From Flavobacterium xueshanense (GTDB lineage: Bacteria > Bacteroidota > Bacteroidia > Flavobacteriales > Flavobacteriaceae): 64,000 bases of DNA. Position 1 is the first letter of the stretch. Each line of letters opens with the position of its first letter. Below are positions 2,853-61,325 of this stretch, one piece after another. Position numbers and translations under genes: made by a program. The notes beneath the pieces were generated by a model that saw only the letters and a program-made list of their open reading frames with translations, searched no databases and had not been told where the DNA came from. The stretch lies in NCBI RefSeq assembly GCF_900112975.1, contig NZ_FONQ01000002.1, positions 428,696 through 492,695 of the forward strand, written 5' to 3'.

Positions 2853-3069
2853 ATTGGGAGGAACGAAGAAATCTCTTAATGATTTTTGACTTTTGCGTTT
2901 TTAGGAGCTATTTCCAGCTATTCGTTACAATCTTTTTTGAGGCGAAAAGCCTAAAAAAAGGATTTCCACTGCTATCTGGGCTAGAGCTTTTAGGTTCACA
3001 GTAGATTTAGATTAAATACGAAACAATAATTAATAATGAATGAAGAGTTGCTTCGTTCTGCCAAATGAC
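2853..3069. repeat. inverted pair of GAGGAACGAAGCAATC-type repeats
   Basis: The left arm at 2853-2875 reads ATTGGGAGGAACGAAGAAAT and on to CTC. The right arm at 3045-3069 is its inverted copy, GAGTTGCTTCGTTCTGCC and on to AAATGAC. Both resemble a palindromic intergenic repeat (core GAGGAACGAAGCAATC) that I know from many unrelated genomes. The pair encloses the structured repeat at 2902-2991. The right arm overlaps the upstream part of the next reading frame and argues for its later start codon. Confidence 0.55.
2902..2991 (+). repeat. structured interspersed repeat, copy A
   Basis: The element begins TAGGAGCTATTTCCAGCTAT and ends GGGCTAGAGCTTTT. Its centre is a hairpin, AATCTTTTTTGAGGC paired with GCCTAAAAAAAGGATT around a GAAA-type loop. 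Copies B (12498) and C (34493) share the flanks and keep the stem with different paired bases. This copy lies 52 bases after pheS. Confidence 0.75.
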
Positions 3070-12041: not shown

Positions 12042-12500
12042 ATGAATCAATTATTTGACGTCAGCACTACAAGCAGAAATATGGTTTCAAAATTTCTATC
12101 GGGATACACTCTCGACCAACTCAACACTATTCCGGAAGGATTCAATAATAATTTGATTTGGAATATCGGCCATATTATCGTTTCTCAACAATTATTAGTG
12201 TACAAGCTTTCTGGTTTGCCGATGATGATTTCTGATGAATTAGTAGAGAAATACAAAAAGGGAACCAAGCCGGAACATATCGTGACACAAGCCGAAGTTG
12301 ACGAAATCAAATCGTTGTTGTTTGAAACCATCAGCCAAACCAAAGTCGATTATGACAATAAAATTTTCAAAAATTACATGGAATATACCACTTCAACAGG
12401 TGATCATGTTTTGAAAAATGCCGAGGATGCTATGGCTTTCAGTAATTTCCATGAAGGGCTTCATATTGGGAACATGATGAGTATCAGAAAGTTTATTTAG
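12042..12500 (+). CDS. DinB-fold (DinB-like/YfiT) protein
   Basis: This 152-residue four-helix-bundle protein of the DinB/YfiT superfamily (not DNA polymerase IV) has the metal-binding histidines expected of the fold: NLIWNIGHIIVSQQLL near residue 43 and NFHEGLHIGNMMSIRKF at the C-terminus. Such proteins are often thiol-dependent S-transferases or damage-inducible proteins of unknown role. It is divergent from the ArsC/Spx-like gene. Its TAG stop is the first triplet of structured repeat copy B. Confidence 0.85.
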   Translation: MNQLFDVSTTSRNMVSKFLSGYTLDQLNTIPEGFNNNLIWNIGHIIVSQQLLVYKLSGLPMMISDELVEKYKKGTKPEHIVTQAEVDEIKSLLFETISQTKVDYDNKIFKNYMEYTTSTGDHVLKNAEDAMAFSNFHEGLHIGNMMSIRKFI

Positions 12501-12580
12501 GTGCTATTTCCCGCTATTCGTTGCAATCTTTTTTCGGTAAAAACATCAAAAAAGGATTTTCACTGCTATCGGGGCTAAGC
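12498..12580 (+). repeat. structured interspersed repeat, copy B
   Basis: It begins at the stop codon of the DinB-fold gene with TAGGTGCTATTTCCCGCTAT and ends CACTGCTATCGGGGCTAAGC. The central stem is AATCTTTTTTC paired with AAAAAAGGATT, shorter than in copies A and C, around a larger loop. Confidence 0.75.
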
Positions 12581-12601
12581 AATCAACAAAAAAACACTAT
12601 T

Positions 12602-12636
12602 TGGTCTTTAAAAAATGTTTGATTTTTTAAAGACCA
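12602..12636. terminator. bidirectional terminator between convergent genes
   Basis: TGGTCTTTAAAAAA is paired perfectly (14 bp) with TTTTTTAAAGACCA around a 7-base loop. It lies between the DinB-fold gene and the DUF3298 lipoprotein gene. Confidence 0.8.
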
Positions 12637-33333: not shown

Positions 33334-34491
33334 ATGCCTTTATACCACAAATTGGGGATTTTTCCTCAAAAAAGACACACACAATTTGAAAAACCAAATG
33401 GTGGTTTGTATTACGAACAACTCTTTGGCACAGAAGGATTTCACGGTAATTCGTCCTTGTTGTATCACGTTCACAGGCCTACGCAAGTCAAGGAAATTCT
33501 CAATTCGTATTCGGTTGAGCCGAAAATTGCCATTGGAAAAAACATCAAATCATTACTGTTAAAAGGTTTTGAGTTAATGCCGGAGGACGATTTTCTGGAC
33601 AGCCGCAAAGCCATGTTAATCAATAAAGATTGTATTATAGGACTAGCCGCACCAAAACAATCATTACGAAGTTATTTCTATAAAAACGCCGATGCTGATG
33701 AAATGATTTTCATTCATAAAGGGAAAGGAAAATTGCGCACCATGATGGGAAATATTCCTTTCGAATATGGAGATTACTTAATTATTCCTCGTGGAATGAT
33801 TTACCAAATTGATTTTGAAACTTCGGAAAACAGATTGTTTTACGTCGAATCATTTGCGCCTTTTTACACGCCAAAACGCTATAAAAATGAGTCAGGTCAA
33901 CATTTAGAACATTCGCCATTTTGCGAGCGCGACTTTATTTTGCCAAATGAGTTAGAAACACACGATGAAAAAGGTGATTTTCTAATCAAAATCAAGAAAG
34001 AAGGAATGATGCATGAAGTCGTTTATGCCACGCATCCCTTTGATGTAGTAGGTTGGGACGGTTATAATTTTCCATACGGATTCAGTATTCACAATTTCGA
34101 ACCCATTACAGGTCGGGTACACCAGCCACCACCAGTTCATCAGACTTTCGAAACTTCGACTTTTGTTGTTTGTTCGTTCGTTCCAAGATTGTACGATTAC
34201 CATCCAAAAGCCATTCCTGCACCTTACAATCACAGTAATATAGATAGTGATGAGGTTTTATATTACGTAGATGGGGATTTCATGAGTCGCAACAATATAG
34301 AGCAAGGTCACATTACATTACATCCAAAAGGAATTCCTCACGGACCGGCGCCAGGTGCTATGGAACGCAGCATTGGTCATACAGAAACGCACGAATTAGC
34401 GGTTATGGTTGATACCTTTCGCCCGTTAATGGTCACCGAAGAAGCGATGGGATTGGACGACGGTCAATATTACAAATCTTGGATAGAGTAA
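33334..34491 (+). CDS. hmgA: homogentisate 1,2-dioxygenase
   Basis: This iron dioxygenase opens the ring of homogentisate in tyrosine catabolism. The N-terminal part (KRHTQFEKPNGGLYYEQLFG) is of the short bacterial type. The C-terminal cupin contains the iron-site region YNHSNIDSDEVLYYVDGDF, then GHITLHPKGIPHGPAPGAME. The product is maleylacetoacetate. hppD, the preceding pathway step, follows about 195 bases downstream. A structured repeat (copy C) begins 2 bases after the stop. Confidence 0.93.
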   Translation: MPLYHKLGIFPQKRHTQFEKPNGGLYYEQLFGTEGFHGNSSLLYHVHRPTQVKEILNSYSVEPKIAIGKNIKSLLLKGFELMPEDDFLDSRKAMLINKDCIIGLAAPKQSLRSYFYKNADADEMIFIHKGKGKLRTMMGNIPFEYGDYLIIPRGMIYQIDFETSENRLFYVESFAPFYTPKRYKNESGQHLEHSPFCERDFILPNELETHDEKGDFLIKIKKEGMMHEVVYATHPFDVVGWDGYNFPYGFSIHNFEPITGRVHQPPPVHQTFETSTFVVCSFVPRLYDYHPKAIPAPYNHSNIDSDEVLYYVDGDFMSRNNIEQGHITLHPKGIPHGPAPGAMERSIGHTETHELAVMVDTFRPLMVTEEAMGLDDGQYYKSWIE

Positions 34492-34492
34492 T

Positions 34493-34580
34493 TAGGAGCT
34501 ATTTCCTGCTGTACGCTTTATCTTTTCCTGGCTAAAGAAGCCAGAAAAAGGATGCCGCTTCCATCAGGGCTAGGGCTTTA
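34493..34580 (+). repeat. structured interspersed repeat, copy C
   Basis: It begins TAGGAGCTATTTCCTGCTGT and ends CATCAGGGCTAGGGCTTTA. The central stem is ATCTTTTCCTGGC paired with GCCAGAAAAAGGAT. The apical CTGGC/GCCAG pairing differs from GAGGC/GCCT in copy A but keeps the helix. The remaining bases to 34686 hold only an ATCCGCGTCATCCGCGTT phrase. Confidence 0.75.
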
Positions 34581-34686
34581 GAGTAAACAACAACATAATT
34601 TTAAATTAATAAATCCGTGTCCATCTGTTTTATCCGCGTCATCCGCGTTCCAAAACTAGAAATACCGAATCAAAAAATAAATCACA

Positions 34687-60949: not shown

Positions 60950-61325
60950 AATATGATTATTTAAATGATTTATAAATATATTTATTCAAATTTAAACATT
61001 AAACTTTGGAAACGGAAATTCTATTTCGTTATAATTTCATTAAATTAATTGATAATGTGTTCTTTGAGATTGCAACAGTCTTGTTTTCAGGTGTTATTTC
61101 CTGCTTTCTGCAGCAAATGAAATTCATTGAACACCAATTAAAATAAAAGTATAGTGAAGTAATCTTTTATCCGTTGCAAAGGTTATTAAAAGGGTTGTGA
61201 TCGCAAATTACGTTCCTTAATTCGTTTCATAGTAAAAGTTAGATTCAGTAATCAGGTTTAAAAAAGGTAATGTTTTTTAAATTGCCGTATTCTTTAAATA
61301 TAACTAAAGAAACAAAATTACCTAA
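60950..61325. other. intergenic region between sod and comF
   Basis: It holds the sod promoter and a short degenerate relative of the structured repeat's 5' half (AGGTGTTATTTCCTGCTTTC and on, 61089-61111) lacking its partner. A TTTAAAAAA/TTTTTTAAA stem at about 61257-61281 may end comF. Nothing else is recognised. Confidence 0.4.
60987..60994 (-). promoter_or_regulatory. sod -7 box TAAATTTG
   Basis: TAAATTTG on the minus strand, 37 bases before the start. Confidence 0.5.

Follow-up and report, generated by a model that had tools for sequence, protein, structure and literature searches.

What is the structured element that recurs three times behind genes in one part of the Flavobacterium xueshanense genome, and how do its copies come to be where they are and as they are? 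The window analysed here, a stretch of 64,000 nucleotides, lies on contig C16 of an assembly of 3.47 Mb in 33 contigs. A sequence-only reading of the window had described a structured interspersed repeat in three copies, with compensatory changes in the stem, situated after pheS, a DinB-fold gene and hmgA, and had named the Rfam family Flavo-1 as a possible relative. A search with the RF01705 profile identified all three copies at these places as Flavo-1, every one above the gathering score of 42, and domain matches bore out the identity of the three preceding genes. The window copies are typical of an established Rfam family, which they resemble in sequence, fold, strand and taxonomic range.

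Table 1. Flavo-1 elements in the window and the genes that precede them.
Feature	Position	Strand	Details
Flavo-1 copy 1	2907-2986	minus	RF01705 79.6 bits; own model 101.2 bits over 2893-3008; core class a
Flavo-1 copy 2	12503-12580	minus	RF01705 74.5 bits; own model 102.3 bits over 12489-12602; core class a
Flavo-1 copy 3	34498-34575	minus	RF01705 77 bits; own model 104.6 bits over 34484-34597; core class b
pheS, precedes copy 1	1831-2850	plus	PF01409 and PF02912; stop codon 2848-2850
DinB_2-family gene, precedes copy 2	12042-12500	plus	PF12867
hmgA-like dioxygenase gene, precedes copy 3	33334-34491	plus	PF20510
Decayed Flavo-1 copy with extra ACTTCACT arm	~61089-61181	minus	Collinear comparison

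Copy 1 has AGGC/GCCT as its apical hairpin, and copy 3, directly 3' of the hmgA stop codon, has TGGCT/AGCCA. The TAG stop codon of the DinB_2 gene (12498-12500) is part of the conserved outer end of copy 2 and, in the outline that the earlier reading gave the element, supplies its first three bases, in agreement with its statement that this copy sits on the stop codon. A separate terminator-like hairpin of 15 pairs, present on both strands, lies at 12602-12636 between this copy and a convergent gene, so the Flavo-1 copy is not the sole hairpin at the end of the DinB gene. The truncated relative proposed at 61089-61111 is indeed a relative, but its extent was drawn too short: it belongs to the longer remnant of Table 1, which is matched neither by the Rfam profile nor by our own model and is the counterpart of an intact copy in Flavobacterium sinopsychrotolerans.

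The repeat extends far beyond the window. At least 110 Flavo-1 matches (E up to 0.001) were found in the genome, 100 of them over the Rfam cut-off, and this count is a floor, 150 of 1100 candidates having been scored. In a survey of the genus, 58 of 61 genomes contained matches, and copy number was patchy, from zero in the remaining three to at least 64 scored matches; in a survey of the phylum, matches were found in 22 of 148 genomes. The nearest named PheS found, at 99%, is that of F. sinopsychrotolerans. Host and survey fit the Bacteroidetes range of Flavo-1. By blastn the pheS copy had no match on plasmids or phages, and IMG/VR contained no match to a strict pattern; the phage and plasmid negative is weak, since a shorter form of the pattern finds only one of the three window copies.

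Copies of the common kind share one anatomy. In Flavo-1 orientation the order of parts is TAGCCC-N-GAT, a helix of two bases, an internal loop, ATC with a C bulge, a T-rich arm and an apical hairpin that varies; after it come the matching arm, GAT, the partner bases, AGC-N'-GG and finally AATAGCTCC. By a simple pattern, the ends of the 110 copies fall into 79 of type 1, 22 of type 2 (GCGTGAGGGAT ... AGCCCGACC-hairpin-GGTCACGCCC) and nine others, several of which are plainly type 1 with a changed base. Some copies also include an extra arm of ~45 nt (ACTTCACT ... AGTGAACT) or, ahead of GCTCC, a hairpin of greater length. The core occurs in two classes: class a has two bases before ATCC and GATTG or GATTA opposite, and class b has one base before ATCC and GATA. 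Within the internal loop, the form of one strand goes with that of the other, the 110 copies comprising 52 a/a, 39 b/b, one mixed and 18 that were not parsed.

RNAalifold applied to 34 copies from this genome returned 17 pairs, 11 of them with double changes. A model built from these copies was then searched against 99 loci, a set without the ten weakest matches (L104-L113), L031-L033 and L076. It gave 101 matches, four rows of which were duplicates counted once, leaving 97 distinct rows for the covariation test. In these, 98.0% of 1620 cells pair, 14 of the 17 pairs are doubly changed, and doubly changed cells number 397 against a mean of 110 in shuffled alignments. None of 500 shuffles, a control that ignores the relatedness of the copies, reached any of five measures, and structures slid along the alignment pair at 44-50%. 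The compensatory changes first proposed from three copies are thus real. Unpaired columns such as A34 and A39 are also invariant across the 34 copies.

The fold has a strand. With duplicates kept, pair cells on the Flavo-1 strand comprise 1623 Watson-Crick, 31 G-U, six A-C and 28 other combinations, and the ratio of G-U to A-C indicates that this is the strand that carries the constrained fold. The structural constraint acts on the Flavo-1 strand in single-stranded form, be it RNA or DNA. The folding energies predicted for the two strands did not differ. The window copies had been assigned to the strand of the gene before them; this assignment fails, as the Rfam match and the G-U pairs both place the fold on the minus strand, antisense to all three genes.

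A specific constrained strand is what a family of small RNA genes, each copy with its own promoter, would display, and Flavo-1 is filed in Rfam as a small RNA gene. The relevant part of Weinberg et al. 2010 lists it as probably an RNA, not cis-regulatory and without a function (PMC2864571). A promoter-like site on the Flavo-1 strand lies just before the hmgA copy (34623-34595). However, promoter-like sites at the three window copies number 0, 1 and 1, against 1.6, 1.5 and 1.0 expected from shuffles. The passage on Flavo-1 in a 2021 transcriptome of F. psychrophilum reports matches lying indistinctly sense or antisense to transcribed regions, with no fixed strand, and many in no transcribed region (PMC9723704); it fits the reading as an interspersed repeat. 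We regard small RNA genes as very unlikely. Unlike the Rfam filing, the element seen here behaves as a repeat between genes: it has no set orientation relative to them, its ends include a second type, some copies bear extra arms, and its cores can differ at an address that relatives share.

The placement of the 110 copies was compared with genes predicted by a home-made codon-score finder. No copy lies inside a gene, although two reach 5-6 nt into the end of one. With the Flavo-1 strand as reference, both flanking genes are antisense at 40 copies and both sense at 23 (63 codirectional in total); 24 copies lie between divergent and 17 between convergent genes, and six are unresolved. These arrangements are much like those of Flavo-1-free gaps, which in 373 kb of the same genome are by length 58% codirectional, 27% divergent and 16% convergent. 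Orientation is not fixed over the 110 copies, so the proposed strand rule relative to the preceding gene does not hold. The predicted enrichment behind stop codons was found: of 100 gene 3' ends that face a copy, 57 are no more than 60 nt from it, against 20% at random positions, and the 5' ends that face a copy stay close to background (25 of 114, against 20%). Where a single 3' end faces the copy, the Flavo-1 strand is antisense to it in 42 cases and sense in 24 (p 0.036). The outer TAG also serves as the stop codon after pheS in two relatives (L144 and L151). Among the matches listed in two complete genomes, with skew sampled sparsely, there was no replication-strand pattern (G036, 41 plus and 33 minus of 74 listed; G045, 50 plus and 26 minus of 76 listed). 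The plus-strand excess among the matches listed in G045 (50 of 76) does not switch between chromosome sectors.

Closeness to gene 3' ends is one ground for the main rival, a 3'-end element that is transcribed with the preceding gene and whose hairpin protects or processes the 3' end of the mRNA. Any stable hairpin would then suffice, so cores could change freely and other palindromes could substitute. The similar predicted energies of the two strands agree with this, as does the gap after pheS (L119-L161), where, by eye, relatives without Flavo-1 often carry an unrelated palindromic repeat. Yet for the 24 copies between divergent genes there is no 3' end on which to act, the fold strand lies antisense to a single facing 3' end more often than sense, the G-U pairs point to the opposite strand as the one under constraint, and this rival does not account for the unpaired bases that never vary. 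An intrinsic terminator, a GC-rich stem with a T run directly behind it, was looked for and found on neither strand of the three window copies, which speaks against this rival and also against the termination role suggested earlier. On balance a 3'-end element seems unlikely. In three of the relatives (L153, L156 and L157), the TAG stop codon in the pheS gap makes up the first three bases of a TAGTCATTGCGAGG repeat.

Further evidence came from relatives that share the same addresses. A stretch of contig C16 is collinear with F. sinopsychrotolerans (genome G221) at ~89% identity. Nine of the 16 matches that our genome has in the stretch could be placed in G221; eight of the nine hold a copy there, in the same orientation in all eight. 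Site 17 has a shared copy but different DNA on its left, and the pheS site in G221 has another palindromic repeat instead of Flavo-1. In the reverse direction, 11 of 15 G221 matches could be placed, at the same eight sites and at three others, where our genome has a recognisable copy with an extra arm, the remnant at 61089 of the window, and nothing recognisable. At the hmgA site, identity over 45 nt is 96% in one flank and 84% in the other, and that of the cores is 54%; our core is class b with the TGGCT hairpin, that of G221 is class a with a different hairpin.

The comparison was widened to seven genomes, namely our own, G221, F. sandaracinum, F. omnivorum, F. rhamnosiphilum, F. frigoris and the metagenome-assembled genome ES-bin-45. 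At the 14 sites with copies in at least two of them, orientation agrees in 14 of 14. Core class, read from the printed arms, differs at six (sites 8, 14/26, 15, 18/28, 20 and 21/29); between our genome and G221 alone it differs at three of eight (8, 14 and 15). At site 27 even the end type differs, F. sandaracinum and F. omnivorum having the first and F. sinopsychrotolerans and F. rhamnosiphilum the second. The core at this site in the latter two was missed by our own model, the G221 element running GTGGAAAGCCCACAG ... GAGGACTTATAGCGG. Median core identity is 0.69 at shared sites (64 pairs) against 0.55 at different sites (1476 pairs), with two unparsed rows left out and no pair from site 17; because cores are more alike at shared sites, exchange is far from complete and cores are not freely shuffled.

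Two sites were followed on trees. Of 28 rows at the hmgA site, 13 have the element, in one orientation throughout, and the class changes between a and b at least five times among 11 labelled rows, on a tree with 11 of 25 inner branches weak and in a count that leaves out G014, G021 and omni (by reading none, a and b, respectively). At the pheS site 12 of 53 rows have it, with at least seven changes of presence on the tree; in one clade (L135, L137) its orientation is reversed, which suggests an independent gain.

Such gains, together with the patchy copy number in the genus, would be expected of a non-autonomous transposable repeat of MITE or REP type that jumps from site to site; cores at one address would then differ through the arrival of further copies on top of or next to existing ones. 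Against this, the comparison with F. sinopsychrotolerans contains no clear new insertion, the unshared sites holding another repeat, a remnant or nothing recognisable, and the hmgA flanks are kept up to the ends of the element. No target site duplication was definable and no clean empty site was found in the G221 and seven-genome comparisons. Several Flavo-1-rich genomes are also without a Y1 transposase. A hopping repeat is an account we consider quite unlikely. The earlier description of the element as mobile holds in that the inside changes faster than the site; it does not hold for the addresses, which are mostly inherited.

The search for a mover identified no enzyme, and the candidates were rejected. 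A RAYT/Y1 transposase does not qualify, because PF01797 is absent from eight Flavo-1-rich genomes (G004, G029, G030, G053, G055, G035, G050 and G043, with 42 to at least 64 scored matches). None of the three PF01797 loci of our genome has a Flavo-1 match within 1.5 kb on each side; the Y1_Tnp loci sit beside other palindromes. Two Y1/RAYT-like genes (L032, 1926-2500; L033, 1260-1980) adjoin palindromes of their own, of CCAACCGTTTCAACGGTTGG and CGGATTTGCAATCCG type, unlike Flavo-1. A reverse transcriptase was dismissed likewise, as the presence of PF00078 does not track Flavo-1 richness over 17 genomes: it is absent from the rich G053, G035 and G050 (G035 and G050 being 88% and 83% complete) and present in the poor G020, G058, G032 and G002. 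Finally, the open reading frames between close pairs of copies on contigs C29 and C16 look ordinary by eye, none of them transposase-like.

Flavo-1 shares with REP/BIME elements and their RAYTs a high copy number, an intergenic location and imperfect palindromes near gene ends. It differs in that it needs no RAYT, several rich genomes being without PF01797, and in that the left end of the 79 type-1 copies has no GTAG tag (a G precedes TAG in 1%). MITEs and other short non-autonomous repeats are, like Flavo-1, non-coding, present in high copy and without a gene of their own. In contrast to MITEs, no target duplication could be delimited for Flavo-1 at the sites compared. A fold specific to one strand, with unpaired bases that never vary, and a core that can differ between relatives at one address are not known as features of MITEs.

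Hairpin modules are found repeatedly at separate addresses. Six copies in our genome have a near-identical apical palindrome of ~52 nt under three outer pairs (C-G, A-T and T-A). The heart of this palindrome, a 15-mer, occurs 15 times in the genome, 13 times within seven Flavo-1 copies and twice elsewhere, once just beside a copy, so within our genome this module is nearly exclusive to Flavo-1. The apical module of the hmgA copy is identical in a copy on another contig. A further hairpin module, GAGCGACC-variable-GAAGCTCC, recurs with small variations in enlarged Flavo-1 apices at different addresses: in L112, at site 16 of our genome and G221, at site 18 of G221 and F. rhamnosiphilum, and at site 26 of F. 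sandaracinum. The closest relative of the hmgA core of G221 is the hmgA copy of G019 (92% over 84 query bases), followed by a copy in G221 itself (91% over 56). As the closest copy is that of another species, exchange between species or an old polymorphism is possible; the G019 result weakens the case for copying within the genome in its best example, and no donor copy is pinned down by it.

Copies in the same spots and the same orientation but often different inside have likely been renewed by copying between repeats, and a role in intrinsic termination is not supported. We explain Flavo-1 as a high-copy structured intergenic repeat whose sites are shared among relatives and whose cores are likely overwritten by ectopic gene conversion, an explanation for which we put the chances at about even. 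Under it, cores would be overwritten in place from other copies, by gene conversion across the shared arms, and their differences would arise by recombination between copies rather than by other routes. A folded single strand, DNA or RNA, may take part, some factor would read the invariant unpaired bases, and new sites would be seeded only rarely. Shared sites, differing cores and recurrent modules are observations; the overwriting, its substrate and any enzyme are inferences. Against this explanation, the position near gene 3' ends and the unpaired bases that never vary might instead reflect a role in the cell. Literature searches, with subscription papers outside their scope, turned up no account of cores altered in place.

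A more specific proposal is put forward tentatively, and we think it doubtful as a whole. It holds that Flavo-1 is not an RNA gene but a set of ~100 fixed addresses per genome, at which some enzyme would read the Flavo-1 strand in its folded state, either single-stranded DNA or a copy in RNA, and would paste nested hairpin modules from one address into another between the conserved ends, module exchange being faster than transposition.

For a family published as a probable RNA without a function, and not placed by the 2021 transcriptome, these data suggest a testable reason: Flavo-1 behaves like a structured interspersed repeat with sites that are inherited and insides that differ. If cores are exchanged between copies, compensatory changes in families of this kind need not mean RNA function. 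Flavobacterium would then provide ~100 replicate sites per genome for finding the enzyme.
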